Assembly: GCA_945861065.1 (NCBI GenBank)
Contig: CAMASI010000005.1
Coordinates: forward strand, 1 to 64,000
Source of the DNA: Klebsiella pneumoniae
GTDB taxonomy: Bacteria; Myxococcota_A; UBA796; GCA-2862545
Direction: 5' to 3'
Length of the DNA: 64,000 bases
The notes under the pieces were generated by a model. It saw nothing but the letters and a program-made list of their open reading frames with translations, did not search any database and was not told the origin of the DNA. The position numbers and the translations under genes were made by a program. Shown here piece by piece: positions 9,512 to 39,276 of the stretch (its first letter is position 1; every line of letters starts with the position of its first letter).

Positions 9512-10480
9512 TCAGTTCACGTCCACGGTGGTCAAGAACAACGGCGTGGGGCTCGTGCAGGTGTCGAGCGTGCAGGTCGTGCCGATAAGCCACGTCCCGT
9601 CTGTCGTGAAGCCAGGAAACGCATTGCCGCCAGCGTCGACGGCCGCGCTCAGGTCATCCACGATGACCAGACCGAACACGTCCATCGTATACAATTCCGC
9701 GGCTTCCTCGTACAACCGGACGAACACCGATTCGACGTCTGCGATGTCCGAGGAGTCCACCCGTCCGATCAACAACTCGTCTGCCAACAACACGTCGTAC
9801 GGCGCGCCGGTCGAATCGAGCGTGACCGCACTGAGGTCCAAGGAGTAGGGCGCAGCGCCTGCATCCACGCACGGATTGGTGCCCGAATGTAAGTCAGCCA
9901 CGAAATCAATCGTAGACATGCCGTCCGTGAACTCGCAATAAGAGTCCGTGGCAGCGTCTTCAAATCGGAGAATCTTGGACATCAGGATGTCTGGCCGCGG
10001 ATCCAACTCCATGAGCGTGGCCAGCCACAAGGCATTCGGATCCTCAAATAGCTCGACCTCTGGCACGAGTTTATTCCCCAGCACCTCGAAATCCGAAGCG
10101 AACGCGCAGACGGCGCCAGCGTCATCGACAAAAAACTGGACCTGAGAATCCGACTGATACAAGGTACCGGTTTCGAGTTTCGCGTACAGTTCTTCTTCCG
10201 TTAATAGGAACTTGGCCAGCAGAACCCGATCCACGGTCGCCGGGTCCGGCATCGGGTTCCCCCGGAGCGTGGTCGTCAGGTTGTTCCAACACAGCTCGAA
10301 ATCGGTCTGCGACTTGAGCACCACTTCCGCGAGTTCAATCGTCCCCGTGAACGTGTAATTGTCCGCATCAGTGAGCACGACTTCGCTGCCACACGAGGCG
10401 CCTGTGTCCGTTGCCGCCTTGTCGCCGCAGCCCGCACACACGACCAACCCTACAGCACCCAACAACGTCATGGCTCGCAT
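9512..10480 (-). CDS. Hypothetical lipoprotein upstream of aldehyde dehydrogenase
   Basis: Not recognised. 322 residues with a lipoprotein signal MRAMTLLGAVGLVVCAGC (lipidated Cys 18) and a short Asp/Thr linker. The body is acidic, with about eight scattered Cys that may form disulfides outside the cytoplasm, and ends in a Cys-rich segment CTLDTCTSPTPLFLTTVDVN. It is separated from the aldehyde dehydrogenase start by one base, so both are probably co-transcribed, but a lipoprotein and a cytoplasmic enzyme have no obvious joint job. Confidence 0.7.
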   Translation of the reverse strand: MRAMTLLGAVGLVVCAGCGDKAATDTGASCGSEVVLTDADNYTFTGTIELAEVVLKSQTDFELCWNNLTTTLRGNPMPDPATVDRVLLAKFLLTEEELYAKLETGTLYQSDSQVQFFVDDAGAVCAFASDFEVLGNKLVPEVELFEDPNALWLATLMELDPRPDILMSKILRFEDAATDSYCEFTDGMSTIDFVADLHSGTNPCVDAGAAPYSLDLSAVTLDSTGAPYDVLLADELLIGRVDSSDIADVESVFVRLYEEAAELYTMDVFGLVIVDDLSAAVDAGGNAFPGFTTDGTWLIGTTCTLDTCTSPTPLFLTTVDVN

Positions 10481-10596: not shown

Positions 10597-12372
10597 ATGA
10601 GTCCGCTCTTGTGGGTGCTCGCTTGTGAGAAAAACGATCCGCCGCAACCCGCGGTAACCACCGACACTGTGCCGTCGATCGACGGCGTCGTGCCGCTCAG
10701 CGACATCGCCCAGCTCAACCGCGCCTCCATGGCCATCCGGGGCATCCGACCCTCCCTGTCCGACATCAGCCTCATCCAGAGCGATCCTGCACAGCTTGAG
10801 GCGCTCGTAGACGCCTGGCTCGACTCGCCGGAATTCTCAGAGACGATCAAGGACATGTACGCCGAGCTGTTGCTGCTCCGCACCGACGTGGCCTACCAGT
10901 TGCCCCAAAAAGGAATCCTGACCGACAAGGGAATCACCCAAGGTGATATTCACCATTCCACGGTGGAATCGCCCCTCATATTCATTGCCGACATTATCAT
11001 GAACGACCGTTCCTACACCGAAGTGTTTACCGCAGACTACATGTGGTCGAACGACGTGCTCGCCGACATTTACGGTCTGGAATACAATTTCGAAGGCCCA
11101 GAATGGCAACAGAGCCATTGGACGGATGGACGCCCACAATCCGGCCTGCTGTCAGATTCCGAAATGTGGCGACGTCACGTGTCCAACGCGGCGAACTACC
11201 ACCGCGGACGAGCCAACTTCGTATCGAAGACATTCTTGTGTTCCGACATTGCCGGCCGCGACGTGGAGGTCGGACAAGGAATCGATCTCGCAGATCCAGA
11301 GGAGGTCGCCAACGCCGTGTCCACGAATACGACCTGTGTGGGGTGTCACGACGTGCTCGACCCACTCGCTGCCAACTGGTGGGGCTACAAGGAACAGCTT
11401 CAGCGCAACGCTGTGGACCAGGCGTACGTGGCTGGCTGTACCTTTGATATTACCGTGGACGAAGAAGTGCGCGGCGTGTATCGCCCCGAACATTTTTGTT
11501 ATCCTCTTCGTTTCTACGACGTGGAAGAACAGGGTCGCTGGGAAGATGAGTTGCTAAAACCACCCGGCTTCTATGGGACCCCGACCGAAGATATGACGGA
11601 CGTGGGCCGCCTCTTGGTCGACGATCCGCGGTTCAGCCAATGCACCGCCGTCTCGTGGTTTGCTTACCTGGCGGAGGTGGAGCGCGAAGCGATTCCGCTC
11701 GACGTCGCCATGAAATACCAGACGGTTCTGGAAGACGCCAATTTTGACATCAAGACGTTGATCGCCGAAATCGTCCTCGATCCGACATTCATGGCAGATC
11801 GTGTCGAAGCCGGATCCGCGGCCTATGTCACCGGCCTGCGTATTATCCGTCCAGAGCAGCTGGACCGAACGTTGGCTGATTTGACCGGTTTTCAATGGTT
11901 GGCCAACGAAGACGACGCAGACTGCGCAGAAGGCACAGACCTGTGCTGGGAAACCGTCAACCTGTCTCGTTCCGACCTGACCGGATTCCGATCCATGATG
12001 GGGGGTGTCGACGGCTACACGGTGACCCACCCCACCCATTCTCCCACACCTACCAAGGTGCTGGCAATGGCGCGACTCGCAGCAGACGCGGCAGGCTGGG
12101 CGGTCGAAACCGACTTCCTCCTTCCCATCGGCGGCCGCAAGCTGTTCAACGACATTGAACTCGTGGACGCGTCAGAAGTCTCGGTGCGCGCGCAGATTGC
12201 CGCGCTCCACACGCGCGTTCTGGGAATCCCCGCGGCGGCCGACGATGCCACCGTCGACCTCCTCTACACGACCCTCTTCCTTCCCGTTTTGGCCTCAGGC
12301 GGAGACGCCGAAGAGGCCTGGAAACTCACCTTGTCGGGTTTGTTACAAGACCCGGCCATGATGTTTTGGTAG
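10597..12372 (+). CDS. Cassette 1 gene A: DUF1588/1592-like lipoprotein with CVGCH
   Basis: 591-residue lipoprotein (MSPLLWVLAC, lipidated Cys 10). It resembles the planctomycete/deltaproteobacterial DUF1588-DUF1592-DUF1585 group: LNRASMAIRGIRPSLSDI near the N terminus, WRRHVSNAANYHRGRANFV, then a single haem-c-like site CVGCH (C247, C250, H251) followed by DPLA. Later blocks are IIRPEQLDRTLADLTGF and DLTGFRSMMGG, with the C terminus LLQDPAMMFW. The role of this family is not established; one covalent haem outside the cytoplasm is likely from the motif. It is followed by a DUF1501 gene, the usual partner. A clear paralog with the same block order lies inverted at 19223-21016. Confidence 0.88.
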   Translation: MSPLLWVLACEKNDPPQPAVTTDTVPSIDGVVPLSDIAQLNRASMAIRGIRPSLSDISLIQSDPAQLEALVDAWLDSPEFSETIKDMYAELLLLRTDVAYQLPQKGILTDKGITQGDIHHSTVESPLIFIADIIMNDRSYTEVFTADYMWSNDVLADIYGLEYNFEGPEWQQSHWTDGRPQSGLLSDSEMWRRHVSNAANYHRGRANFVSKTFLCSDIAGRDVEVGQGIDLADPEEVANAVSTNTTCVGCHDVLDPLAANWWGYKEQLQRNAVDQAYVAGCTFDITVDEEVRGVYRPEHFCYPLRFYDVEEQGRWEDELLKPPGFYGTPTEDMTDVGRLLVDDPRFSQCTAVSWFAYLAEVEREAIPLDVAMKYQTVLEDANFDIKTLIAEIVLDPTFMADRVEAGSAAYVTGLRIIRPEQLDRTLADLTGFQWLANEDDADCAEGTDLCWETVNLSRSDLTGFRSMMGGVDGYTVTHPTHSPTPTKVLAMARLAADAAGWAVETDFLLPIGGRKLFNDIELVDASEVSVRAQIAALHTRVLGIPAAADDATVDLLYTTLFLPVLASGGDAEEAWKLTLSGLLQDPAMMFW

Positions 12373-12375
12373 GAG
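12371..12375 (+). promoter_or_regulatory. Ribosome binding site deciding the DUF1501 start
   Basis: AGGAG overlapping the stop of gene A, five bases before ATG 12381. It favours that ATG, which begins directly with a Tat signal, over the in-frame TTG at 12366. Confidence 0.7.
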
Positions 12376-12380
12376 CAACC

Positions 12381-13724
12381 ATGTGGTCCCGTCGCTCACT
12401 GTTGCGAAACGGCGCTGCTGGCGCCGCGAGCCTGCTCGGCGCGCGCCCTCGCGCCCACGCCCAATCGGCACCCGGCGCCCCCAAACACCTCATCGTCGTA
12501 CTCATTGAAGGCGGTTGGGATGTGACCTATTGCCTCGACCCGAAGGAGGGTTGCCCGGACCTCGATGCTGCTGCAAAGGCCGAGGGTCCATCGTGCGACG
12601 CAGGCACCGCCGAGGGCACGGAAAACATTGAGAAGTTTGGCAACCTCACCGTGGCCACAAACGCCCTTCTCCGTCCCGGCGTCGCGGCATTCTTTGGCGG
12701 CTCGGCCGTTGAGGGGGGGCCAGGACGGTACGAACGCTGCCATATCATCAACGGTATCGAGACCGGCTCCATCGCGCACGACCCCTGTCGAACCCGCATG
12801 CTCACCGGCACGCAGTCGATGACCAATCCCGACATTTCCGTGATCGCCGGTGCTGTGCACGGTGGAAGTCTTCCGCTAGGGTCCGTGGATCTCTCGGGGT
12901 GGAGCGTTTCCGGCAGCCTGGCGGCGACGACCGGACGCATCGGGTATCAGAGCCAGATCAAAGCACTCGTGGATCCGAACACGTTCATGACCGCTCCCCC
13001 AGGGCTGGGCTGGAGCTACCCGTTGTATGACGGGACAACACATGAGGGGAAGCTTTCCGAATATCTTCTCGCCCGCCAAGCCACCTTCCTTGCCCAACAT
13101 GCAGACGGCGGGCACAACGACCTTGTTGTCGGTGCTATGGAAGAATCGCTGGGTCGGGCCGCACTCTTTAAGGCTCAAGGTGCATCCCTGCTGACGGAGT
13201 TGGAGGTCGGCGAAAAGGTCATGTTCTACAACCAGATTAATATCGCGATCAGTCTCATTCAGGCCGGCGTTTGTCACTCCCTTATGCTGGATTCCCGCTA
13301 CGACTGGGACACGCACGAGGTCAATCTGGCTCAACACGACCATTACGAGGGTTTGTTTCGCAACCTCGCCCACTTGTATGACGCGCTGGAAGAAGCCGGT
13401 CTCTTCGAAGACACCGTCGTCGCCGTGATCTCCGAAATGACTCGCACACCGTTGATGAATCTCGCGAACGGGAAGGACCACTGGCCACACACGTCTGCAC
13501 TTCTGTTCGGCGGAGGCGTGAAAGCGAACCAAACGAGCGGTGCAACGGACAGCCAGGTGGAATCCCAAACGGTGGACCTCGCTACGGGTGCCGTCGTTAC
13601 AGAAATCGACGGCGGCGTCCCCCTCAACTACGATAATTTCTGTGCCGGTATCCTCGACCTTGTGGGGGTCAACGCTGCAGATTGGCTTCCAGACGCCGTG
13701 CCCTTCGAGGGATTCAAGGCCTGA
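12381..13724 (+). CDS. Cassette 1 gene B: Tat-exported DUF1501 protein
   Basis: 447 residues from ATG 12381. The N terminus MWSRRSLLRNGAAGAASLL carries a twin-arginine motif (SRRSLL), so it is exported folded, probably with a bound metal. The DUF1501 fold, of the alkaline-phosphatase/sulfatase superfamily, shows in LIVVLIEGGWDVTYCLDP, in GVCHSLMLDSRYDWDTHEVN, in AVISEMTRTPLMNLANGKDHW and in TSALLFGGGVK. DUF1501 enzymes are uncharacterised. It follows gene A within nine bases and runs into gene C with two bases between TGA and ATG, so the three are one operon. Paralog: 17782-19206. Confidence 0.92.
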   Translation: MWSRRSLLRNGAAGAASLLGARPRAHAQSAPGAPKHLIVVLIEGGWDVTYCLDPKEGCPDLDAAAKAEGPSCDAGTAEGTENIEKFGNLTVATNALLRPGVAAFFGGSAVEGGPGRYERCHIINGIETGSIAHDPCRTRMLTGTQSMTNPDISVIAGAVHGGSLPLGSVDLSGWSVSGSLAATTGRIGYQSQIKALVDPNTFMTAPPGLGWSYPLYDGTTHEGKLSEYLLARQATFLAQHADGGHNDLVVGAMEESLGRAALFKAQGASLLTELEVGEKVMFYNQINIAISLIQAGVCHSLMLDSRYDWDTHEVNLAQHDHYEGLFRNLAHLYDALEEAGLFEDTVVAVISEMTRTPLMNLANGKDHWPHTSALLFGGGVKANQTSGATDSQVESQTVDLATGAVVTEIDGGVPLNYDNFCAGILDLVGVNAADWLPDAVPFEGFKA

Positions 13725-13726
13725 CG

Positions 13727-15832
13727 ATGAGCGCGCAAATCCTTTTCACGAAATGCACGATGCTGCTAACGGCGTCGGCACTGCTCAGTGGGTGCAGTTG
13801 CGGCGAAGAGCCGCCAATCGCCACAGATCCACCGCCAACCCAGACGTGCGAAACCCTCATCACCTGGGACGGTTTCGCGCAGGGATTTTTCAGGGATTGG
13901 TGCACAGCTTGTCACTCCTCCGCCTTGGTCGGTGACGCCCGCATTGGTGCCCCCGAGGGCATGAATTTTGACACATATGAGGGCGTCATTCCCTTCCGAG
14001 ATCGCATGCTCGTGCGTGCGGTTGCGGAGGCGAGAGACACGGCGGACACAGGCGCCGAAGACGACGCGGACTTGAGCCCCATGCCCCCGGCGGGCGGCGT
14101 TGCGCCGGAGGATATCACGTATTTCGAAGAATGGCTGACGTGCGGTATGCCCCGCGGTGCCGACACCACGGCAGTGGACCCATGCGCAGTTCTCCATGCC
14201 TACACCGGAGACGTCTTCGCTGCGCAATCGGCCGACCTAGGCGCCACGTACAACCAAATCCTCGGCACGCTGCATGTCGATGCCAACGCCGACCTGAGCT
14301 GGGTGTGCCAAGTAGAGGGCGACGTGCTCGTCAAGCAGGGGCCGACCACGGTAGCGTTGGACAGGCTGACACACGTCACGGGCGACTTCATCGCCAATTC
14401 CGGCACAGGTTTACTGAGCCTATCCGCCCCTGTCCTCGAAACCGTCGACGGGGACCTGCGAATCGAAGGGCAAGACCAGTTAGCCGACTTGGAGCTCGCC
14501 GAGGTAATCACCGTCGGCGGCGACCTTATTGTTACGGACAGCGCTGGTTTCCAGCGCCTTGCGTTCAGCGACCTCCGAACGGTCGGTGGCGACTTTCGGG
14601 TGGAACGGAACTCCGAAATGACGCACTTCGATTGCTCCCGCATCGAATCCATCGGGTTGGACTTCACCATATCGGAAAACAAGTCCATCACGGAGTTCAG
14701 CTGCGGAACCGTGCTGACGGACCTCGGCGGGAGCCTCTCTTTCGACGACAACGAAGCCTTCGCCTCTGATTTCTATACGTTTGACATCCTCACGAACATC
14801 CCGGGCGACCTGTCGATTTCCAGGAACGCAGACATTCGCACCATCGAAGGGTTCTATCTGTTGGAGACCATCGCAGGTTCGGTCGATTTCTCAGAAAACG
14901 CGGCGCTGGAGGTTATCGGAGATTTCGGCTCACTCAACACAATTGGCGGTCATTTCATCATCGAGGACAATGCCTCGCTGATGACCATCCGTGATTTTGC
15001 TCTGCTGCAACATGTGGGCCTGACCGCCGATGCCGGCGAGGGAATTTTCCGCATCGCCAAGAATCCCGTCCTTCAAGGTGGCACGGGCCCGCTCAATAGC
15101 GTCGTCCACGTTCAGGGAATCGAAGTTGTAGAAAACGGCTTTGGTACAAACCCCTTTGACGTCACCTTGATCACGCTGTTTACCAGTCTAACGGACGTGG
15201 ACGCAGACGTTCTCCTGCAAGACAACCCCCACATTCTGGAGCTCGGGGTGTTCAGCAAGCTGAGCCGGGTCAATGGAGACGTGGTGATTTCCGGCAACGA
15301 GGACATGACCAGCTTGACCGGATTCGTTGGCGGGTTCGGCGAAGCCTCGATTGGTGGCGATCTTCAAATCAGCGGAAATCAGTCACTCCTCGGCCTCACG
15401 TTGGGAAACCGATTGGGTGCCGTCATTGGAGAGGTTCGAATCGAACAGAATGCGCAACTAGCGGGAATCTTAGGTCCGGCGAACATTCAATTCGTAGGGA
15501 GCCTTTACGTCGGCGATTCCCCCTCCTTGCTTTCCGTCGGGCAATGGGACTCGCTCACGACGACCGGAGGCGACCTTCACATCAGCAACGCAGATGCCCT
15601 GTTGTCCCTCGCAGGCCTTGAGACCGTTGCGGACGTCGGCGAAAACCTGTGGATCGAAGACAACGCCTCACTGGAATCGCTTCAGGACCTCGCCAGCGTC
15701 GGCTCCGTGGGCAATGACGTCCGCATTGTAGGCAACGCAGCGCTGCCCGATGCCGATGCACAGGAGTTGGTCTTTCGCGTGGGCTTGGAAAACATTGGCG
15801 GAACCGTCGTAATCACCGACAACGGTGGATGA
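13727..15832 (+). CDS. Cassette 1 gene C: cytochrome-c-like / receptor-L repeat lipoprotein
   Basis: 701-residue lipoprotein from ATG 13727 (signal ends SALLSGC, lipidated Cys 23). Residues 40-145 form a minimal cytochrome-c-like domain: haem site CTACH (C59, C62, H63), a candidate axial Met in MPPAGGV (M119), and the closing helix ITYFEEWLTCG. From about residue 170 come some 20 repeats of the type GGDLIVTDSAGFQRL, GDVVISGNEDMTSLTGF, a receptor-L/leucine-rich beta-solenoid. The fusion suggests a surface-anchored redox protein with a long binding scaffold; this is inference. It ends 37 bases from the end of its inverted paralog at 15870-17780. Confidence 0.85.
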   Translation: MSAQILFTKCTMLLTASALLSGCSCGEEPPIATDPPPTQTCETLITWDGFAQGFFRDWCTACHSSALVGDARIGAPEGMNFDTYEGVIPFRDRMLVRAVAEARDTADTGAEDDADLSPMPPAGGVAPEDITYFEEWLTCGMPRGADTTAVDPCAVLHAYTGDVFAAQSADLGATYNQILGTLHVDANADLSWVCQVEGDVLVKQGPTTVALDRLTHVTGDFIANSGTGLLSLSAPVLETVDGDLRIEGQDQLADLELAEVITVGGDLIVTDSAGFQRLAFSDLRTVGGDFRVERNSEMTHFDCSRIESIGLDFTISENKSITEFSCGTVLTDLGGSLSFDDNEAFASDFYTFDILTNIPGDLSISRNADIRTIEGFYLLETIAGSVDFSENAALEVIGDFGSLNTIGGHFIIEDNASLMTIRDFALLQHVGLTADAGEGIFRIAKNPVLQGGTGPLNSVVHVQGIEVVENGFGTNPFDVTLITLFTSLTDVDADVLLQDNPHILELGVFSKLSRVNGDVVISGNEDMTSLTGFVGGFGEASIGGDLQISGNQSLLGLTLGNRLGAVIGEVRIEQNAQLAGILGPANIQFVGSLYVGDSPSLLSVGQWDSLTTTGGDLHISNADALLSLAGLETVADVGENLWIEDNASLESLQDLASVGSVGNDVRIVGNAALPDADAQELVFRVGLENIGGTVVITDNGG

Positions 15833-15869
15833 CCTGGCGACAACGGATCAACGCGCTTGCCCGCCGCTG

Positions 15870-17780
15870 TCAGTCCCCGTTTCCACTCACAACGATGTTC
15901 CCCCCCACGAAGTCCAGCCCATCCACCAGGGCTTCCACATCAGACGTAGGCAAGTCCGGGTTGTCCGTCACGAGGACGTCCAGCCCCACAAACGCCAGGG
16001 ACTCCAGGCTGGTCAGCGAAGAAAGCAGGTCGTTGTCGCTGACCCTAAACGTGCCCGCCACCGCCTCCAAGTCAACAAGGCCCTCCATCTCAACAAGCGC
16101 CGAGTTGCCAACCAATCGAAAGTTACCGCCAACCTCCGTTACCTTCGCAAATGCATCCAACGTGGTCAACGCAGGGTTCTCGCTCACTTCGAGCGTACCG
16201 CCTGTGGACTCCAGGCGGGCGAAGTTCGTGAGACCCGCAAGGACCGAGTTGTCAGCGACGAACAGATCTCCGCCAACGCTGGTCAACAAAGGAAATGCGT
16301 CAATCGCCACCAACTGGGCGTTATCCGTCATCCGCAGGTCGCCGCCAATGTTCGTAAGTGCCCCAAAGTCGGTAAAAATGGTGATTCCGGCGTTGCCTTC
16401 GAAAATAAGGTCATTCCCTACGGATTGGAGTACGCCCATCCCAGCGACATTTTGCATCTGCCGGTTGTCCTCCAACACGAGGTCGCCCTCGATCTCTACA
16501 AGGTTGACGAATCCAGAAACATTTGCCAGATTTCCATTCCCTTGAATCTGGATGTCCGCATGAGCAACCGTCATGGTATCGAAGGCCCGCAAGGACGCTA
16601 GCAGGGCGTTGTTTCGGATAAGAATGTCGTTCTTCCCCTCCAGCAGCAAGGTGAAGCCATCCAACAGCGTGACGATGTCGTTCTCAGAAACGTCTACTCG
16701 GCCGACGATATCCACGACATGAAACATCGCGTCTTGGAGGAGGCTGATGCCGTCTAGGTTTACCAACTCCACGTTGCCCGCCACACGCTCGACGGTATCC
16801 AAGGTTTCCAAATCCGCGAGCACAGGAAGGTCCCGGAACACGAGGTCGCCCTCCACCCAGCGCAAACGAATGACGTCGATGGTGGTCAGCGCAGCCAGAT
16901 TCGACACCTCCATCGAACCGACGACGGTCTCCAACTGAAGCAGCAGCGCTTCTTCGAGCACGGGATTGTTGGTGAGCAAGAACTGCCCCCCTACATAGGC
17001 CAGCTCCGGCATCCACAGTGTGTGGAGCACCGGGTTGTCGGCAAGCATCGCGTCCCCGCCATCGACGGTCGCCAACACGGGCAACGAGACCGACTCCAGG
17101 TGCACCCCGTCCTGTACCGTCAGGTGACCTCCGACAGAGGTCAGACTCTCAAGCGAGACCGACCTGGGGCTGGTGAGGAGTTCTTTCGGTACGCCCAGGT
17201 ACGTAGCACCAGTCTCCACCGCGACGATTTCGAGGTCGCCGCCCACGGAACACAAACACGGGGCGACGATGTCACCGCCCTCGATACGAAGATCGCCCTC
17301 GACCGAATTGTACAGCGCACAGAATGCGTCCGCCCCTGCCTGATCCGTCCAGACCAAATCCTTATGCTCGCTGTCCACAATAGCGGTCGTACATGAGGGC
17401 TCCGTGATGCCCTCCCCCGGAGCACCACACCCCAGCCACTCCTCGAACTGCACCTGGTCGCGCTCGAAGACGCCACCTGCTGGCGGCATGGCCGGATCCG
17501 CACCCGTAGCCCACAACTCGATCTTGGATTTGTACGCCAAGACGTCTTCATAGAGATCGAAGTTCACTGAAATCGGCGCCCCCTGCCGAGCCTCCAAAGG
17601 CACATTGACGCTATGGCACTGCAAACACCACGTACCCACATGCTCTTTTGCGAAGTTGTCCCAAGTCACCACCGTAGTGCACCCGATTCCCTCCGCGACC
17701 GGGTCCGCGTGGGGCAACCACGACACACCATCGCAAGAACAACCCGCCAATTGAATTAGGGCCAGGCGCTGAAACCACAT
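15870..17780 (-). CDS. Cassette 2 gene C': cytochrome-c-like / receptor-L repeat lipoprotein
   Basis: 636 residues from ATG 17780, one base after the stop of gene B'; longer in-frame starts would run into B' and lack a signal. Lipoprotein signal MWFQRLALIQLAGC (Cys 14). Cytochrome-c-like domain with CLQCH (C52, C55, H56) and MPPAGGV (M98), then DQVQFEEWLGCG, matching cassette 1 gene C block by block. Repeats such as VGGDLFVADNSVLAGLTNF and AGTFRVSDNDLLSSLTSL follow to the end (IVVSGNGD, against VVITDNGG in C). It is shorter than C by about 65 residues, probably through repeat loss or gain. Same inferred role as C. Confidence 0.85.
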   Translation of the reverse strand: MWFQRLALIQLAGCSCDGVSWLPHADPVAEGIGCTTVVTWDNFAKEHVGTWCLQCHSVNVPLEARQGAPISVNFDLYEDVLAYKSKIELWATGADPAMPPAGGVFERDQVQFEEWLGCGAPGEGITEPSCTTAIVDSEHKDLVWTDQAGADAFCALYNSVEGDLRIEGGDIVAPCLCSVGGDLEIVAVETGATYLGVPKELLTSPRSVSLESLTSVGGHLTVQDGVHLESVSLPVLATVDGGDAMLADNPVLHTLWMPELAYVGGQFLLTNNPVLEEALLLQLETVVGSMEVSNLAALTTIDVIRLRWVEGDLVFRDLPVLADLETLDTVERVAGNVELVNLDGISLLQDAMFHVVDIVGRVDVSENDIVTLLDGFTLLLEGKNDILIRNNALLASLRAFDTMTVAHADIQIQGNGNLANVSGFVNLVEIEGDLVLEDNRQMQNVAGMGVLQSVGNDLIFEGNAGITIFTDFGALTNIGGDLRMTDNAQLVAIDAFPLLTSVGGDLFVADNSVLAGLTNFARLESTGGTLEVSENPALTTLDAFAKVTEVGGNFRLVGNSALVEMEGLVDLEAVAGTFRVSDNDLLSSLTSLESLAFVGLDVLVTDNPDLPTSDVEALVDGLDFVGGNIVVSGNGD

Positions 17781-17781
17781 G

Positions 17782-19206
17782 TCAAACCGCCGTTGCACCC
17801 GTAAATGGAACCGCGAGTGGCAACCACTTTGCAGCATCAATCCCGGCGGTCTGAAGCACACCGGACACAAAACTGTCGTATTTGAGGAGTTCGCCGCCAT
17901 CGGCCTCGTCGATCAACTCGCCGGTCGTGATGTCTACCGGCATAGACTCCTGGGATTCGTCGGTGGACCCGTAAGTAAAACCGCCCTTGATTCCCGCTCC
18001 GATGAGCAGCTGCGTGGTGTGCCCCCAATGATCCTTGCCGTTTCCGACATTGAGGCGAGGTGTGCGGCCCATCTCCGAAATGACAGCAATAAGCGTGTCC
18101 TTGAGTTGGTCCGTCTCCTGAAGTCGACACATGAGCTTGTCAAGCGTCGTAAACATGGTGTTGTACTTTTCGTGCTGCAAGAAGTTCGCCTTGTGCGTAT
18201 CCCACATCTCGAAGTGTTTGATGGTGACCGCGGAACACAAACCCTTTTCCAATAGGTCCGCCGCCACACAGGCCTGCAGGTCCATGCTTGGCTCCGCACC
18301 CAGCTTGAGATCCGCGACCATGTCGGCACCCTTCTCCAGCAGGTCGGTGCGGCGCTTCATGGCACTCAGCATGTCGTTGAGCATCAGCTCATTGCGCGGT
18401 GCAAACTTGCCCGAGCGCGCATCTCGGAACTCCTCTACCCTTTGCTCAAGCACCTCGCGGACCAGTTTCTCTTCGAGGGAATCCCTTCGGAATATCGGAA
18501 GCGTGTAGTCAGCGTCGGAGGGTGCTGCATACACGGTGGCCGGATCCAGCAGCGTCTTGATCTGCGCATTGAATCCAATTCGGCCCGTGGAGGCCGCAAG
18601 TTGTCCCGAATAACTCAGGCCAGAGAAGTCAAAAGACCCGAGAGGCAGATCCGCGCCGTGCTCGAAGCCGAAAATCGTCGCGAAATCCGCATTGTAGGAC
18701 GCCGTCGTACCCGTCAACATCCGAATTCGGCACGGCTGGTGCACGATAGAACCCGTCCACATCCCGTTGATGACGGCCGTGTCTTGCCACCAGCGCTCGC
18801 AAAAGCGGCTCAATCCTCCGCGTTTGACGAGATTCTCCTTGAAAATAAACCCAGCGCCGGGCGACGCACGCAGGTCATCCGGAACGGGGCGTCCCCACGC
18901 CTGTGTCGTCTCTACGTCTCCTTCGAGTTTCGGATCAAAATCGGCCTCAGGCCCGTCGATATTCGGATTTCCTGTTTTTGGGTCGAAGGCATAGGTCGTG
19001 TCCCATCCGCCATTGGCGATGACCACGATGAGTTTCTTGGGAGCGTTGTAGGCCACCGGCGCACGCTCACACCAATGCACTCCGGCCGGCACATCAAAGT
19101 CGGCCGCACAAACCCCATCGAGGGCGCCGCGCGCGGCACCGGGCACCAACAGGCCCGCGCCGACGAGGCCGGAACGATTGAGAAAAGATCGGCGAGACAG
19201 AGTCAT
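17782..19206 (-). CDS. Cassette 2 gene B': Tat-exported DUF1501 protein
   Basis: 474 residues. Twin-arginine signal MTLSRRSFLNRSGLVGAG (canonical SRRSFL) ending near AARGA. DUF1501 blocks: LIVVIANGGWDTTYAFDPKTG, CSAVTIKHFEMWDTHKANFL, AVISEMGRTPRLNVGNGKDHW, TQLLIGAGIKGG. It shares with B the central STGRIGFNAQIKTLLDP-type segment (B: TTGRIGYQSQIKALVDP) and the end AKWLPLAVPF (B: ADWLPDAVPF). Catalytic function unknown for the family. It sits 16 bases after gene A' and one base before gene C', giving the same gene order as cassette 1 on the opposite strand. Confidence 0.92.
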   Translation of the reverse strand: MTLSRRSFLNRSGLVGAGLLVPGAARGALDGVCAADFDVPAGVHWCERAPVAYNAPKKLIVVIANGGWDTTYAFDPKTGNPNIDGPEADFDPKLEGDVETTQAWGRPVPDDLRASPGAGFIFKENLVKRGGLSRFCERWWQDTAVINGMWTGSIVHQPCRIRMLTGTTASYNADFATIFGFEHGADLPLGSFDFSGLSYSGQLAASTGRIGFNAQIKTLLDPATVYAAPSDADYTLPIFRRDSLEEKLVREVLEQRVEEFRDARSGKFAPRNELMLNDMLSAMKRRTDLLEKGADMVADLKLGAEPSMDLQACVAADLLEKGLCSAVTIKHFEMWDTHKANFLQHEKYNTMFTTLDKLMCRLQETDQLKDTLIAVISEMGRTPRLNVGNGKDHWGHTTQLLIGAGIKGGFTYGSTDESQESMPVDITTGELIDEADGGELLKYDSFVSGVLQTAGIDAAKWLPLAVPFTGATAV

Positions 19207-19222
19207 GTTCGTGCCACTCCGG

Positions 19223-21016
19223 TCAGATGAACATCATGCGAGGATCTTCGAGCAGTGCGGAGAGCACGACGACCCACGCGCCGCGCACGTTTCCGCCATT
19301 GACCGACAGCACATCCGTGAACAACTCGTACGAGATCGACACGTCGTGGTCATCGGCAAGCGCTGGCGCGCCCAAGACCCGACTGTGGATCGCAGCGAGC
19401 TGTTCGCGAACCAGCGCCTCGTCGAGGTCACCGGCCTCGATTCGATCGAAGAGCTTGCGCTGGCTGCGGTCAGGCAGCCCCAGGTCCTGGTCAAATACGT
19501 ACGCCGCCGCATCGGACGCAAGTTGATCGACCACGATGGCCTTCAGCGGCGTCATCGTATGCGTCGGTCGGGTGATGTTGAGGTGATCGAGGCCCCCCAT
19601 CATGGAGCGGTAGCCAAAGAGGTCGCTCTCTGGCAGGTCCACGTTGCCCCAACACTCGGGTCCGTATTTCAGGTCCGGATCGTCACAACCGGGGGTGTCG
19701 GTATTGGCCACCCAACGATATCCAGTGAGGTCGGCCACCAGGTCACCGTACTGCTCCGGCCGAATCGCGCGCAGACCCGCCATTCCATCGTCCACACTGC
19801 CCGCGGCGGGGGCCCACGCCCGGAATGCGTCGGAGAGTACGACCTGAACGGTCAGCTCCTTGGCATTGAAGTCGCTCGATTCCAGCAACAGCTGTAGGCG
19901 CTGGCTTTCTTCGATCGGGACCGACATCACGTCGGTTTCATTGAAGTAAGCAAAAAACTGGCGGGCAGTGCAGGACGCGAACCTCGAATCCTCGGCAATG
20001 ATCTGCCCAACTTCGGTCATGTTGGCAGCTTGTTGACCGTAAAAGAGCGGCGGACGCAAGCCCCATCGCTCCCACCCAATTTCTTCGTCAACCACATACT
20101 GCTTAATTGGGTAGCAAAAGTGTTCAGGCATGTTGTTGGGCCCGTACTCGGGCACCGACCCGTCGCTCCAGTCCCACTCGCAACCCGAACTGATCGCATC
20201 CCCCACGGCATTTCGGTGGATGAGCTGCTTATAGCCCCAAAAATAGGCCGCGATGCCGTCCAGGCTCTGATGGCAGCCGACGCAGGCGGGCTCCACCATC
20301 ACGGCGTTCGCCACTTCGAATTCGTCCGCGATGTCGATTCCGCCCGGCACATACAAATCGCGCGTATCGAAATCCTCACACAGGAAGCGAGACGCCACAA
20401 CGTTGGCGCGACCCCGGTGGAAGTTACTGCCGTCGGATTCCCACCGGCGCCACATCTGCGCACTCGACAACAAACCGGCCGGCGCCCGATAATCCGACCA
20501 CGCCGAAACCTGCCATTCCGGGCCATTCTCGTCGTAGGCGAGGCCATACATTTTCGAAACGACGTCGTTTGTGAGCATGTATTGAGCCGTCACGATTTCC
20601 GTGTACGGCCGGTTGTTGCTGACGATATATTTTACAAGCTCCAGCGGCTCATTCGTATACCCATCGTAAATTTGCTGAAGGTCGTAGCCTGTCAAGGCGC
20701 CTTGCGCGGGAAGGATCAGAAAGATGTCGTCGCGGAGCAGGTACATTTCCGCGTGCATATCTGCAATCGTACTGAGGTATTCTGGGGTTTCGACATAACC
20801 TCGGACAATTCCCTCCAACGCAGCAGGGTCCGCAAGAACGGCGTCTATCTCTGCCAGTGAGGGCCGCCGATTTGTCAACACGATGGACGCCCGATTGAGG
20901 TGCTCCACGGTCGTCAGCAGCCGGTAAGGAACGGGTTCCGCAACGGGGCCAACAACCTCATGCGGGCCGCAGCCAACGACACAAACGAACCCAGCCATCC
21001 ACTTCGAAGTCCTCAT
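19223..21016 (-). CDS. Cassette 2 gene A': DUF1588/1592-like lipoprotein with CVGCH
   Basis: 597 residues from ATG 21016 (MRTSKWMAGFVCVVGC, lipidated Cys 16); a start 31 codons further out would hide this signal. Same blocks as cassette 1 gene A: LNRASIVLTNRRPSLAEI, WRRWESDGSNFHRGRANVV, CVGCHQSLDGIA, AIRPEQYGDLVADLTGYRW, LFGYRSMMGGLDHLNITRPT and the end LLEDPRMMFI. The two differ in much of the sequence between blocks, so the duplication is old. One covalent haem is predicted. Divergent from the TetR-family gene at 21159. Confidence 0.88.
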   Translation of the reverse strand: MRTSKWMAGFVCVVGCGPHEVVGPVAEPVPYRLLTTVEHLNRASIVLTNRRPSLAEIDAVLADPAALEGIVRGYVETPEYLSTIADMHAEMYLLRDDIFLILPAQGALTGYDLQQIYDGYTNEPLELVKYIVSNNRPYTEIVTAQYMLTNDVVSKMYGLAYDENGPEWQVSAWSDYRAPAGLLSSAQMWRRWESDGSNFHRGRANVVASRFLCEDFDTRDLYVPGGIDIADEFEVANAVMVEPACVGCHQSLDGIAAYFWGYKQLIHRNAVGDAISSGCEWDWSDGSVPEYGPNNMPEHFCYPIKQYVVDEEIGWERWGLRPPLFYGQQAANMTEVGQIIAEDSRFASCTARQFFAYFNETDVMSVPIEESQRLQLLLESSDFNAKELTVQVVLSDAFRAWAPAAGSVDDGMAGLRAIRPEQYGDLVADLTGYRWVANTDTPGCDDPDLKYGPECWGNVDLPESDLFGYRSMMGGLDHLNITRPTHTMTPLKAIVVDQLASDAAAYVFDQDLGLPDRSQRKLFDRIEAGDLDEALVREQLAAIHSRVLGAPALADDHDVSISYELFTDVLSVNGGNVRGAWVVVLSALLEDPRMMFI

Positions 21017-23552: not shown

Positions 23553-26114
23553 GTGGGTGATGTGCCGCACCGCGGCCCGCCCGGCTGGGCGATTGCACTG
23601 TTCCTGACGGGGTGTGCCTCTTGCGAGGGCCCAATTCGGGACAGTGGCGTCGTCCCAACAGAAACTTCCACGACTACGACCGGGACCGGACGCGATGGCC
23701 TGACGTGGCACCGCCACGTTCGTCCGTTGATCTACTTCCATTGCGGCGGCTGCCACGGCCCCGACGGGGTCGCGTCGGATTCGCCACTCCGCACGTACGA
23801 CGAGGTCGTCGCGCGCCTGGACGCGGTGATTTCCGATTCAAGTAGCGGAAGGATGCCGCCGGACCTGTCGGGCGCAACCGCGGATTGTGAACCGTCGCAA
23901 CCCACAATGTCCAACCGACTCGACGACGAGACGCTTGCGCTCCTAGTCGCGTGGGCCGAAAGCGGCGCAGAGGAGGGAGACCCCGCGTGGGCAGGCATCC
24001 TCATCCCGCCCACCAGCACTTCTCTCCCGTTTTTCTCTCGCGACCTGCAGGCCACGGCGCCGGTGGAATTGCCACCCGGGGAGGGCGAATGGTGCTTCGC
24101 TTTTGACCCCCAGATCACAACGAGGCATTTTGTCACGGGCGTGGAGGTCGTGCCTTCCAACCCGTCCGTCGTGTACGAAGCGGTCGTGTACATCGACAGC
24201 GACTTCGACAACAGCTTCCCCGACGACGGCGCGCCCGCCCCCTGCGACGGATGGCTGCTAGGCCAAGAACTGGCGGTTTGGCACCCAGGCGACGGAGGAA
24301 CGCTCGCCGAATCCGACAGCGCCTGGAAACTCGAACCCGCGGGTCGGGTGTTGCTTCAAGTGCACTACCGTGTCCTGGGTGCGGAGACGGCCCTAGACTC
24401 GCCCGGCGTGCACCTGTTGTGGTCTGAAGAGGTCGCGGAAGAGGTCGTCGATGGCACCCGGGTCGGCACCGACGCCTCCGCTGTGGCCGCCGAAGGCCTG
24501 TTGCCCGACGACGACGACATCTCCGAGTTTCGGGTTCCCGCTGGCGCCATGGACCACCAGGAGGCGTACGTCTACACGGTGTCGGACACAAAGGACCAAG
24601 CCATCTTCGCCGTCTGGCCCGCGATGAATGCCGCTGGCGTTTCGTTCGAGTTGTGGGTCGACCACCTCGAACCGCGTGAAGGCGAGCCCGCCTCCGAGTG
24701 TGTTCTCGCGCTGCCTGACTGGTCGACCCGGCTCAGCCGGCCGTACCGCTTTGATACGACCACGAACGCGGCGCCAATGATGCGCACGGGTGATGTCGTA
24801 CGCGCCCGATGTACCTACGACAACGCCTCCGCCAACGTCGAGCTGACGACCCTCTTGGCGGAAGAGGGTGTGGTCGGACCCATCGACCTCGTCAACAACC
24901 GATTCCTTCCCAGCGAGCGATGTACGGCCCTGCTACAAGCCATCAACGTGACGGGAGAGCAGGGCTGGCCCGAGCCAATCGTCGAACCCACGGGCACGGA
25001 GCCCACGGTTCCCGATGCAGGGCAACCCGAGTTTCTGTTGACGGAAGTGCTGGACCACCGCGAGGTCGGCGTGGTCAAGTACGTGGAGATCACGAATGTC
25101 GGAACGGCGTCGGCACGAATGGACGATTGGACGCTGCATCGCTGGGCCAATGGAAGCGCGATCCCTGAGGTCGTTGCGCTCGATCCCGTCACGATCGGTG
25201 CAGAGGCATCGGCAATCGTCGCCGCTACGGACGGCGTGATCGACCTCATCGATCTCTTCGGCGTGATTCCAGACGCGGACTCGCCATTCGTATCGGGAAA
25301 TGGTGACGACGCGTACGGGCTCGTCGACCCCATGGGCGTCGTCGTGGACGTCTTCGGTGTGCCCGGCGTGGACGGGACAGGCGCCGAGTGGGAGTACCGC
25401 GACAGCGTGGCCACTCGGGTTGGAGGCGTGGCTTCCGGCACGTGGGACGCCGCCTCTTGGATCATCCTGGCCGGCTCCGCCACGGCAACACCCGGCGCTT
25501 ACCTCCCGGATTCCGTCCCGACCCTCGCCGTCGTACAGCCCGAAGACGTGCAAACCGGCTTGATCCCACTGAGCACCGAGGTCATCGTATCGGGACTCGT
25601 CGTATCGGCCATCGCGGACGACGGCCTCTACGCCCAAACGGAGTCGGGCGGGCCGTGGTCAGGCTTGTGGGTTTACCTGGGTGCCCACTTCTCCGACACG
25701 TTGGGCGTGATCAGCCCCGGGGACCAGATCGACATCCGTGGTGTCACTGACGAGTACGCCAGCATCACCGAGGTGGACGTGGTCGGTGCCCCCCATGGCA
25801 CCCTTAGCGTCATCGGCACGCAAGAACGCCCCATCGGTACGGTGCCCATCGCAACCGTGCTCGCGGAGGCAGAGACGTGGGAGTCGGTGTGGGTGTTCGC
25901 CGAAGACATCGTGGCCCGCACGGACTCCGATGCAGAGGGTCGCTTCTCCGTGGACGTGGAGGGTGGACTCCTTCTCGGGGTAGCACCCAACCTCTGGACG
26001 TACCCGCCCGTCACGGCGGGCCAAGGATTCGCGATTCTAGCGGGTCCCCTCACCGAGACCGATGGCCTGTGGACCGTGCTACCCACCCGCAGTGGCGATT
26101 TCGTCCCTTGGTGA
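23553..26114 (+). CDS. Cytochrome c / copper-ligand-less monooxygenase-fold / lamin-tail lipoprotein
   Basis: 853-residue lipoprotein (FLTGCAS, Cys 21). Residues 50-140: cytochrome-c-like domain, CGGCH (64-68) and MPP (101-103). Residues 160-470: fold of copper type II ascorbate-dependent monooxygenases (PHM-like), aligning with the paralog at 42435-45056. The ligand positions are changed: HH becomes Y208-E209, HMH becomes A357-M358-N359, and the Met of DEMC becomes R457 in SERC. Only H271 (LQVHYR) survives. Residues 490-640: lamin-tail domain (LLTEVLDHREVGVVKYVEIT). The end resembles an OB-fold (STEVIVSGLVVSAI). It should bind haem but not the two coppers, so it is probably not a monooxygenase. 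The GTG start may instead be the one at 23562. Confidence 0.82.
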   Translation: MGDVPHRGPPGWAIALFLTGCASCEGPIRDSGVVPTETSTTTTGTGRDGLTWHRHVRPLIYFHCGGCHGPDGVASDSPLRTYDEVVARLDAVISDSSSGRMPPDLSGATADCEPSQPTMSNRLDDETLALLVAWAESGAEEGDPAWAGILIPPTSTSLPFFSRDLQATAPVELPPGEGEWCFAFDPQITTRHFVTGVEVVPSNPSVVYEAVVYIDSDFDNSFPDDGAPAPCDGWLLGQELAVWHPGDGGTLAESDSAWKLEPAGRVLLQVHYRVLGAETALDSPGVHLLWSEEVAEEVVDGTRVGTDASAVAAEGLLPDDDDISEFRVPAGAMDHQEAYVYTVSDTKDQAIFAVWPAMNAAGVSFELWVDHLEPREGEPASECVLALPDWSTRLSRPYRFDTTTNAAPMMRTGDVVRARCTYDNASANVELTTLLAEEGVVGPIDLVNNRFLPSERCTALLQAINVTGEQGWPEPIVEPTGTEPTVPDAGQPEFLLTEVLDHREVGVVKYVEITNVGTASARMDDWTLHRWANGSAIPEVVALDPVTIGAEASAIVAATDGVIDLIDLFGVIPDADSPFVSGNGDDAYGLVDPMGVVVDVFGVPGVDGTGAEWEYRDSVATRVGGVASGTWDAASWIILAGSATATPGAYLPDSVPTLAVVQPEDVQTGLIPLSTEVIVSGLVVSAIADDGLYAQTESGGPWSGLWVYLGAHFSDTLGVISPGDQIDIRGVTDEYASITEVDVVGAPHGTLSVIGTQERPIGTVPIATVLAEAETWESVWVFAEDIVARTDSDAEGRFSVDVEGGLLLGVAPNLWTYPPVTAGQGFAILAGPLTETDGLWTVLPTRSGDFVPW

Positions 26115-38037: not shown

Positions 38038-39276
38038 TTGGCGTTTCGGCTGCTGCCACTTGCCCTGCTCGGCTGCGAGGACGTCCGCAAAACGCCGCAC
38101 ACACACACCCCGCCGAACGTGGTGTGGATCGTCGTGGACACGCTCCGGGCGGACCACCTGGGCACCTATGGTTATGAACGGAAGACGAGCCCCGCGATCG
38201 ACGCGTTGGCGCGGCGTGGAGCCGTGTTCGAGTCCGCCGTGGCCCACGCGCCATGGACGAAGCCGAGCGTCGCAACGATGCTCACCGGGCTCGAGCCTCG
38301 TGACCACGGCATCACGGACTGGGACGTGCCGATAGACCCGTCGCTCGACACCGTACAGGGCGCTTTTCACGCGGCCGGGTACGCGACCCACGCAGTGGTC
38401 AGCCACCACGCCTTTGACCCGCGCTTCAACAACTTTCATGTCGGTTTCGACACATTCGACGTGTCGGCCCTCGCCGGAGCGACGTCTCCCCATGAAATCG
38501 CGTCTTCCGAAGTCGTGTCCAGCGCAGCGGTGGGTGCCATTCGCGATCTACCGGAACCGTTTTTCCTGTTTCTACATTATTTCGATCCGCACGAGTTCTA
38601 TCTACGTCACGATGAATTCCCCTTCGGCGACAACGCTATGGACCGGTACGACGCCGAAATCGCCTACACGGACCTCGCCATTGGTCAGATCATCGCCTCC
38701 GTCGACTCTCTGGGCTTGTCGGGCCGCACCTACATCGTGCTGACGGCTGACCACGGAGAGGAATTCGGCGATCACGGCGGACGCGTGCACACGCTGACAC
38801 TGTACCAAGAGGCACTCGCAGTGCCGTGGATCGTCGCGGGTCCTGGCATCGCCCCGGACCGCGTCGCCGCCACCGTCGGCCTCGTTCACCAGGGCCCCAC
38901 GATTCTGAACCTCGCGGGCGTGCCCGCGCCGATCGCCATGCGCGGGCGACCCGTGCCACGCGTCAACGGACGATTCGTGCCCTTTCCCGAGCCTGTTTTT
39001 AGCGAGACCCGACGCTATGTGGACCGAAGGTCGGTCGTGGACGGCCGCTACAAACTGATCGTAGACCGTGGCAACGGAGAGACGCTGTTGTTCGACCTTC
39101 GCGAGGACCCGAAGGAGAAAACGAATCTCGCGTCAAACCTTCCCGAAGAAACGCGACGCCTGTCCCGCCTCATCGAGGCCCACGAGGCGGGTCGTGTGGT
39201 GCGCGCGCCGATCCCATTGCCCGACGAATTGGCCGAGTCCCTCAACGCGCTCGGCTACGCGGATCCAACTCAATAA
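38038..39276 (+). CDS. Sulfatase-superfamily lipoprotein lacking the formylglycine residue
   Basis: 412 residues from TTG 38038, directly after the previous stop. Lipoprotein signal MAFRLLPLALLGC (Cys 13). Sulfatase/alkaline-phosphatase fold: metal Asp in VWIVVDTLRADHLGTYGY (D34), later metal motif TADHGEEFGDHGG, and C-terminal GRYKLIVDRGNGETLLFDL with EDPKEKTNL. The active-site segment APWTKPSVATMLTG aligns with C/S-x-P-x-R-x4-TG. The modified Cys/Ser is Thr74 and the Arg is Val78. A Thr nucleophile is used by phosphodiesterases and phosphotransferases of the same superfamily, so phosphoryl chemistry outside the cell is more likely than sulfatase activity. Confidence 0.85.
   Translation: MAFRLLPLALLGCEDVRKTPHTHTPPNVVWIVVDTLRADHLGTYGYERKTSPAIDALARRGAVFESAVAHAPWTKPSVATMLTGLEPRDHGITDWDVPIDPSLDTVQGAFHAAGYATHAVVSHHAFDPRFNNFHVGFDTFDVSALAGATSPHEIASSEVVSSAAVGAIRDLPEPFFLFLHYFDPHEFYLRHDEFPFGDNAMDRYDAEIAYTDLAIGQIIASVDSLGLSGRTYIVLTADHGEEFGDHGGRVHTLTLYQEALAVPWIVAGPGIAPDRVAATVGLVHQGPTILNLAGVPAPIAMRGRPVPRVNGRFVPFPEPVFSETRRYVDRRSVVDGRYKLIVDRGNGETLLFDLREDPKEKTNLASNLPEETRRLSRLIEAHEAGRVVRAPIPLPDELAESLNALGYADPTQ

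Follow-up and report, generated by a model that had tools for sequence, protein, structure and literature searches.

The window analysed here, a stretch of 64,000 nucleotides from an uncultured myxococcal lineage, contains two three-gene cassettes that converge tail to tail. On the plus strand, gene A (10597 to 12372) is an open reading frame for a lipoprotein of the DUF1592/DUF1588/DUF1585 type with one haem motif, CVGCH, at residues 247 to 251. It is followed by the open reading frame of gene B (12366 to 13724), for a Tat-type DUF1501 protein with a predicted sulfatase/alkaline-phosphatase fold (modelled on its paralogue B'), and by gene C (13727 to 15832), encoding a lipoprotein with an N-terminal mono-haem cytochrome module (WCTACHS...MPP) and then a Receptor-L solenoid some 560 residues long. 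The open reading frame of gene C opens at 13682, and the ATG at 13727, 2 nt past the B stop, is its likely start. On the minus strand lie gene A' (19223 to 21016), which also has CVGCH, and the open reading frames of gene B' (17782 to 19206), a DUF1501 protein, and gene C' (15870 to 17900), a second haem-solenoid protein. The A' frame is open to 21109, a lipoprotein start near 21016, the coordinate given in the sequence-only reading, being judged better; the true start of C' is probably inside its open reading frame, near the B' stop at 17782, by analogy with 34 relatives in which the start of C and the stop of B share 4 nt. Between the stop codons of the two cassettes is a gap of 37 bp (15833 to 15869), in which no terminator-like hairpin was found. 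By BLASTP, A and A' are 46% identical over 567 aa (E 1e-168), B and B' 39% (E 3e-106), and C and C' 28% (E 2e-58), values that rule out chance likeness. The convergent arrangement described in the earlier sequence-only reading is thus borne out, as are the Tat motif (RRS), the CVGCH and the lipobox, all parts being exported.

Pfam matches on A and A' are to DUF1592 (PSD4) and DUF1588 (PSCyt3), several of them under the curated cut-off, and A' additionally matches DUF1585 (PSD2). Among 58 relatives of A, PSD4 was found in 42, PSCyt3 in 39 and PSD2 in 40 (E<=0.01); the family has the domain order PSD4-PSCyt3-PSD2 around one CXXCH, with the window's gene A itself matching weakly, and over its whole length A has a profile match to distant PSCyt3 proteins at E 1.6e-62. 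Similarity to DUF1800 was seen in 10 of the 58 (best 1.9e-5), the window's gene A not being among them. Exactly one CXXCH is present in all 94 A proteins, which are without a fused N-terminal cytochrome domain, and two are carried by each of seven distant relatives that are without gene C. The haem motif and lipobox Cys are invariant across A relatives, as are Arg 42, 179, 193 and 203 and Cys 215 and 349, and no non-haem His or Met reaches 80% conservation. The AlphaFold2 model of A (pLDDT 93) is all-helical, and a search of the PDB found no fold match for it; the missing conserved His/Met distal ligand suggests that the haem of A may be reactive.

Gene B matches PF07394 (DUF1501) at 9.9e-23, the profile scores of B and B' being 81.3 and 110.7 bits against a curated cut-off of 27. 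The twin Arg of the Tat motif is invariant in its relatives, and CXXCH is absent from all 93 B proteins. A sequence search of the PDB with B found nothing useful. When the model of B' (pLDDT 90) was compared with the PDB using Foldseek, the probability was ~1.0, with 6fny the best match (E 3.7e-6) and TM-scores of 0.3-0.4, and all of the PDB matches listed are sulfatases or relatives in the alkaline-phosphatase superfamily. From the modelled paralogue, B is therefore predicted to have this fold. Invariant in B are D69, H156, D336, H338, S377, R381, N386 and H393, and E378 is conserved alongside D69, D336, H338 and H393. His156 is at the candidate nucleophile position, and because a Cys, Ser or Thr nucleophile might be expected there, B may be no hydrolase.

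Exactly one CXXCH is likewise found in each of 76 C proteins. In an alignment of 32 C modules, C35xxC38-H39 and M95-P96 are invariant, as are two further Cys that flank the domain; 29 of the 32 match Cytochrome_CBB3, and the PDB matches are mono-haem cytochromes. The module is accordingly assigned, by its motifs, as a class I mono-haem cytochrome c with CXXCH and a distal Met and a predicted haem. Receptor-L (PF01030) was matched by C at 2.6e-11 (44.1 bits) and by C' at 1.3e-10 (41.9 bits), against a cut-off of 21.8 bits. The designation of C as a haem-solenoid protein, made in the sequence-only reading, holds for this locus but not for its ancestry: ancestral C is a single small mono-haem cytochrome lipoprotein present across Myxococcota, and the Receptor-L solenoid was gained later, in the window's family alone. 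Kofleriaceae are among the groups that have short-C cassettes (L177 and L178). An origin of C by separation of the N-terminal haem domain from a fused PSCyt protein is no more than suggested, the fused domain having a conserved His and no conserved Met; an hhalign probability of 46% between the two domains is only suggestive of homology.

Several findings show that A, B and C belong together. A genome-collection scan used a 16-row alignment as query, a single-protein query having given no match. The order A-B-C is the rule among cassettes; 44 of 49 C-module matches adjoin A or B, rather than lying apart from them, and a C accompanies 67 of the 84 A genes that could be assessed, in agreement with the earlier proposal of a fixed third gene. 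The other 17 of the 84 have no C nearby, and C may for that reason be dispensable for some paralogues. Mantel correlations were 0.78 for A and B, 0.59 for A and the solenoid and 0.41 for A and the module (0 of 999 permutations each); the agreement of the A and B trees shows inheritance as units and not separate acquisition. In two species of genus g10, an A'-type locus is without B and each genome has a free-standing B (L103 and L104), and these fill the exact missing place in the B tree (a nine-row clade, support 98). Similarly, for two genomes of genus g8 in which A-B lacks C (a contig end truncates one of these loci), there are sister free-standing C genes (L097 and L098). The three genes are retained together even where the operon is split, and the co-location and split cassettes rule out C as a mere passenger.

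The survey of neighbouring genes found no conserved carbohydrate-active gene beside Myxococcota cassettes, and no widely recurring neighbour except an upstream lipoprotein, X, and a cytochrome protein with a lamin-tail domain. The latter, a lipoprotein on the plus strand of the window (23553 to 26114, from Pfam and the neighbour survey), has relatives near some cassettes in three other genomes, making four in all; it is loosely associated and outside the A-B-C unit. Lipoprotein X has 47 members, three of which were scanned and matched no Pfam family, and adjoins nearly all short-C cassettes and none of the assessable solenoid cassettes. Replacement of X by the solenoid was rejected: X had already disappeared by the time the solenoid was gained, five short-C cassettes within or beside the clade being without it, and a test by independent pairs had 0 informative pairs, hence no causal claim is made.

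What had been taken for a two-copy system proved to be one pair among five cassettes in the source genome (at least four with a solenoid, the window pair included, and one with a short C), and in relatives the number reaches about a dozen at most. A and A' belong to separate, old clades of orthologues, which lie apart from each other in other genera, so that the age earlier ascribed to the copies stands, and a recent inverted duplication is ruled out. The window thus contains two of these old paralogues, of which each genome has several.

The best reading is that the cassette is a new form of the known DUF1501/PSCyt pairing, in which the new part is the third gene, solenoid-bearing in the window's family. 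As to function, the reading we hold foremost, though tentatively, is that each cassette provides one exported three-part complex or pathway. Lipoprotein A would hold a single, reactive c-type haem in an all-helical fold lacking a solved counterpart; B, exported pre-folded via Tat, would bind or process an oxyanion-bearing substrate; and C, whose His/Met mono-haem module most likely exchanges electrons with the haem of A, would most likely select a target or ligand by its solenoid. The three proteins may form a physical complex, each paralogous cassette probably being tuned to a different extracellular substrate, probably oxyanion-bearing (e.g., sulfated). A bolder version, in which this is a new extracellular oxidative complex that combines the unsolved fold of A and the His-for-nucleophile B with a cytochrome retargetable by its solenoid to polymers or prey surfaces, as a small repertoire per genome, is speculative and seems unlikely. 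The surface redox or degradation role put forward in the sequence-only reading is still conjectural.

In the principal competing explanation catalysis falls to B, as a metal-dependent hydrolase or transferase of the alkaline-phosphatase superfamily whose target is a glycan on the surface or outside the cell, and A and C form its haem-containing sensor or scaffold, redox state gating the activity. The sulfatase-like fold and metal-site-like invariants of B are consistent with such a role, as are a sulfatase gene once found beside an A-B pair here (L124) and, in Verrucomicrobia, sulfatase genes beside PSCyt genes (PMC5615132). However, the canonical nucleophile is replaced by His156, the correspondence to sulfatase motifs is weak by sequence (hhalign probability 2.7%), and the most conserved unusual features, haem included, belong to A, so this explanation is possible but rather doubtful. 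Construction or modification of the cell's own envelope polysaccharide, with paralogues serving different envelope structures, would fit the relation of some A proteins to DUF1800 and a finding from proteobacteria (PMC5122149), where DUF1800-DUF1501 pairs occur together with genes for chitin synthase, an epimerase and an aminotransferase. Against this, neither glycosyltransferase genes nor other biosynthetic genes are repeatedly found next to Myxococcota cassettes, and rapid evolution of a solenoid is more usual where a varied outside target is recognised; we consider this explanation quite improbable.

That fast evolution has itself two interpretations. In five of five close pairs the solenoid has the highest dN/dS of the cassette (0.30-0.83 against 0.12-0.41 elsewhere, at comparable dS) and diverges more rapidly than the other parts, A, B and the haem module, and the earlier suggestion of different substrates is favoured by this divergence while still being conjectural. 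Yet dN/dS is below 1 everywhere, and solenoid lengths differ between cassettes; the change could reflect relaxed constraint and not selection for new targets, and the solenoids and many paralogues could simply be loosely constrained surface proteins that drift with no specific recognition role. This is judged unlikely, as scaffold Gly/Asn positions of the solenoid are kept (mismatch 0.09 and 0.26) while the remainder mostly reach 0.4-0.8, A, B and the haem module of the same cassettes stay constrained, and paralogues are kept across genera. The least probable proposal, which we regard as very unlikely, is that the two convergent cassettes function as a unit and cooperate, hence their tail-to-tail placement. 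Both species sampled from the genus have retained the arrangement, with 37 bp between C stops here and 6 bp in the sister species (L050), but it is common to these two genomes only, and by contig position orthologues of both cassettes are unlinked in genera g10 and g12. Nothing in the placement of A and A' suggests that the copies work as a pair, one of two options raised in the sequence-only reading.

In the three-part reading, the combination of DUF1501 with PSCyt or DUF1800 partners, a much-copied and uncharacterised exported pair of environmental bacteria, becomes a trio whose roles can be sorted by gene into haem electron transfer, a sulfatase fold and a fold without known counterpart, and whose recognition-like domain changes fast while the rest of the cassette stays put. 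Function is thereby made testable, by asking in which direction reduction runs between the partners and what ligand the solenoid has.

Di-haem cytochrome c peroxidases and MauG, which have one electron-transfer haem and one possibly open haem, serve as a functional analogy only; here the haems are on separate proteins, and A has neither the known fold, with no solved match, nor two haems per chain. The alkaline-phosphatase superfamily (sulfatases, phosphonate monoester hydrolases, YejM/PbgA) shares the predicted fold of B', but sequence similarity of B to PDB members is below detection and His156 occupies the candidate nucleophile place. Class I mono-haem cytochromes c (c5, c551, c6, cbb3-type) have the CXXCH and conserved Met-Pro of the C module, to which C adds the invariant flanking Cys pair and, in the window's family, the solenoid. 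The DUF1800-DUF1501 operon of proteobacteria (PMC5122149) has the B family with its Tat motif in common, and DUF1800 itself is resembled by the 10 of 58 A proteins; no haem third gene is reported there, and the association is with chitin synthase. Closest are the DUF1501 genomic clusters with PSCyt/PSD proteins in Planctomycetes and Verrucomicrobia (PMC4452313, citing Kamneva 2012; PMC5615132). There, as here, the gene for an exported DUF1501 protein lies beside one for a haem protein that carries DUF1588/1592/1585 or DUF1549/1553 domains, in many copies per genome; some of the PSCyt proteins are fused to binding modules, and the available portions of these sources describe no third haem gene of the C type. 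Unlike those clusters, the cassette has a single-haem A and a separate gene C that brings a second mono-haem module and, in the window's family, the Receptor-L solenoid.

Genes A (a CVGCH haem lipoprotein, 10597-12372), B (a DUF1501 protein, 12366-13724) and C (a haem module plus Receptor-L solenoid, 13727-15832) on the plus strand, and C' (15870-17900), B' (17782-19206) and A' (19223 to about 21016) on the minus strand, are all real, and the sequence-only reading had described the six accurately. Overlapping or nearly touching neighbours within each cassette point to two operons, with 37 bp between the C and C' stops and no terminator-like site seen in that gap. Identity of the paired copies (A/A' 46%, B/B' 39%, C/C' 28%) is far above chance. 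Divergent from gene A is a 322-residue lipoprotein without any Pfam match (9512-10480, minus strand). Exported proteins are abundant in the window, examples being an FG-GAP/ASPIC-UnbV lipoprotein (45053-46747), a lipoprotein sulfatase (38038-39276) and a CotH-kinase protein (62071-63441). Several genomes have cytochrome lipoproteins close to DUF1501 cassettes (window 23553-26114 and 42435-45056; L050:17976-20000; L052:9128-10561; L060:4237-5928; L074:9824-12463), with a lamin-tail-domain match in both window proteins and that of L050, a sister-species locus of the same genus; the middle part of these lipoproteins has no domain assignment.

The pair is present as first described, but its cassettes are not the sole copies in the genome: additional A-B-C cassettes occur on contigs C113 and C54 of the host draft (4.4 Mb in 147 contigs), and C127 has a less closely related one with a short C (the mono-haem module without solenoid). 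Relatives in the host family have up to about a dozen cassettes each. The A tree (94 proteins) joins window A to the sister-species A, then to genera g12 and g10, and groups A' with the sister-species A', then with g12, g8 and g10, bearing out the claim that the copies are old. In the other genera A-type and A'-type cassettes are on separate contigs, and most have enough sequence past the end of C to see that no second cassette adjoins. The tail-to-tail pair is retained in the sister species with 6 bp between C stops. Recent inverted duplication is ruled out by this separate clustering and by the sister-species pair; the cassettes are two old paralogues, which in the genomes sampled stand tail to tail only in this genus. 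Tandem or divergent A-B cassette pairs occur in other genomes (L123, L129, L135, L138, L068), so adjoining cassettes are not rare; within the sample, no other genus has the tail-to-tail form at 6-37 bp.

Solenoid-type cassettes came from 8 genomes in 5 genera of a single family. By named records, genomes with these cassettes are uncultured myxococcal bins. The lineage is probably the Myxococcota class UBA796, members of which were treated as predators in one survey (PMC11937823). Myxococcal cassettes also appear in public bins L156, L181, L186 (CAMCWU01), L191 (CALQBK02) and L150/L160/L169 (JAACDH01), whose titles (Klebsiella pneumoniae, Bifidobacterium breve, Rhodobacterales) look wrong.

Gene C had been proposed as a fixed member of the unit, and this held. 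When 38 relatives were searched with C only, 44 of the 49 listed matches that include its N-terminal module adjoin A or B, so that C does not lie mostly apart from them. C is present at 67 of 84 A genes with enough flanking sequence (32 solenoid, 27 short downstream, 8 short upstream) and at 15 of 17 loci beyond the main set (Kofleriaceae, other named myxococcal and proteobacterial bins); in 34 cassettes C begins within the last 4 nt of B. Mantel distance correlations were 0.78 for A-B, 0.59 for A-solenoid and 0.41 for A-C module (0/999 permutations each), the first speaking against separate acquisition of A/A' and B/B'. C genes overlapping the B stop have lipoprotein signals down to 7-9 residues before the Cys (e.g. 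VIALLLAC, VIFLLAAC; L125:8204-8539, L143:4734-5096, L120:7979-8302, L121:7883-8215 and others), unusually short for bacterial lipoproteins and mostly without positive charge; several such ORFs have no earlier start codon.

The strongest test of the unit is provided by split cassettes. In two g10 species B is missing from the A'-type locus, leaving A-C (L056, L057), and each genome has a free-standing B (L104, L103). These two fall within a 9-row B-tree clade (support 98), and its remaining seven rows come from precisely the cassettes that supply the other seven rows of the corresponding 9-row A clade. In two g8 genomes C is missing from an A-B locus (L054, and L087, truncated at a contig end); each genome has a C standing alone (L097, L098), and these two are mutual sisters. 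Retention of the parts despite a broken operon argues for joint function.

A single A-tree clade (46 rows, support 99) takes in all solenoid cassettes, and its sisters are short-C cassettes; most simply, C would have been short at first and gained the solenoid later. Upstream of most other short-C cassettes, usually overlapping A, is gene X (47 members, none with a Pfam family), exported, often lipoprotein-like and about 300-440 residues long (e.g. L125:4293-5318, L131:2323-3378, L118:3741-4949). X never occurs together with the solenoid in assessable loci; X was lost before the solenoid arose, and their exclusion represents only a few events. Seven distant relatives (Gammaproteobacteria, Burkholderiales, Planctomycetaceae, one Myxococcales bin and one further bin) lack gene C. 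The core of their A proteins aligns with A from end to end (E 1.6e-62), and at the N-terminus these proteins have one more domain with a CXXCH. A system with two haems, on one protein or on two, is thus a recurring plan; the extra domain, a weak match to the C module (probability 46%), may share descent with it.

Judged by their signals, A, B and C are all exported and two are lipid-anchored. Protein A has a conserved lipobox Cys, exactly one CXXCH in 94/94 sequences, and invariant Arg 42, 179, 193 and 203 and Cys 215 and 349; its predicted structure (pLDDT 93) had no significant match among 350,542 PDB chains. Apart from the haem His, no His or Met is shared by 80% or more of A proteins, which suggests that the haem lacks a normal distal ligand and could bind or react. 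B has an invariant twin arginine and no haem motif, and its predicted structure matches sulfatases, phosphonate monoester hydrolases and YejM. Its invariant residues (D69, H156, D336, H338, S377, R381, N386, H393) have what we take to be the spacing of the alkaline-phosphatase/sulfatase superfamily metal site, and motif order, rather than superposition, suggests that His156 might stand where the nucleophile would be. The C module, a mono-haem cytochrome by profile, has invariant CXXCH, Met-Pro and two further Cys, and is followed in the host family by the solenoid.

The solenoid is the fastest-changing part. In the close pair L060/L062, identity is 80% for A, 81% for B, 76% for the haem module and 51% for the solenoid; dS is similar across parts (0.75-1.23), and dN/dS is 0.52 for the solenoid versus 0.12-0.16 elsewhere, ratios that are rough since dS is near or above 1. 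The other four close pairs show the same direction. Within the repeat the fold-holding Gly and Asn are least changed (mismatch 0.09 and 0.26), most other positions reaching 0.4-0.8. The fast change fits a recognition surface that would differ between paralogues, with relaxed constraint as the rival account.

Past the anatomy, we infer every mechanistic step: the His/Met cytochrome C would donate electrons to the haem of A or accept them from it; B, being exported in folded form, may take its metal along and would bind or process a group bearing an oxyanion; and the solenoid would steer the apparatus to its target. Gene neighbourhoods in other bacteria point to polysaccharides, PSCyt genes being found with sulfatases and carbohydrate-binding modules (PMC5615132), and DUF1800-DUF1501 with chitin synthase (PMC5122149). 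The open-licence literature searched yielded no description of gene C as a third member, of a second haem on a protein of its own, of the solenoid-bearing form or of X; the A-B pair itself is already known.
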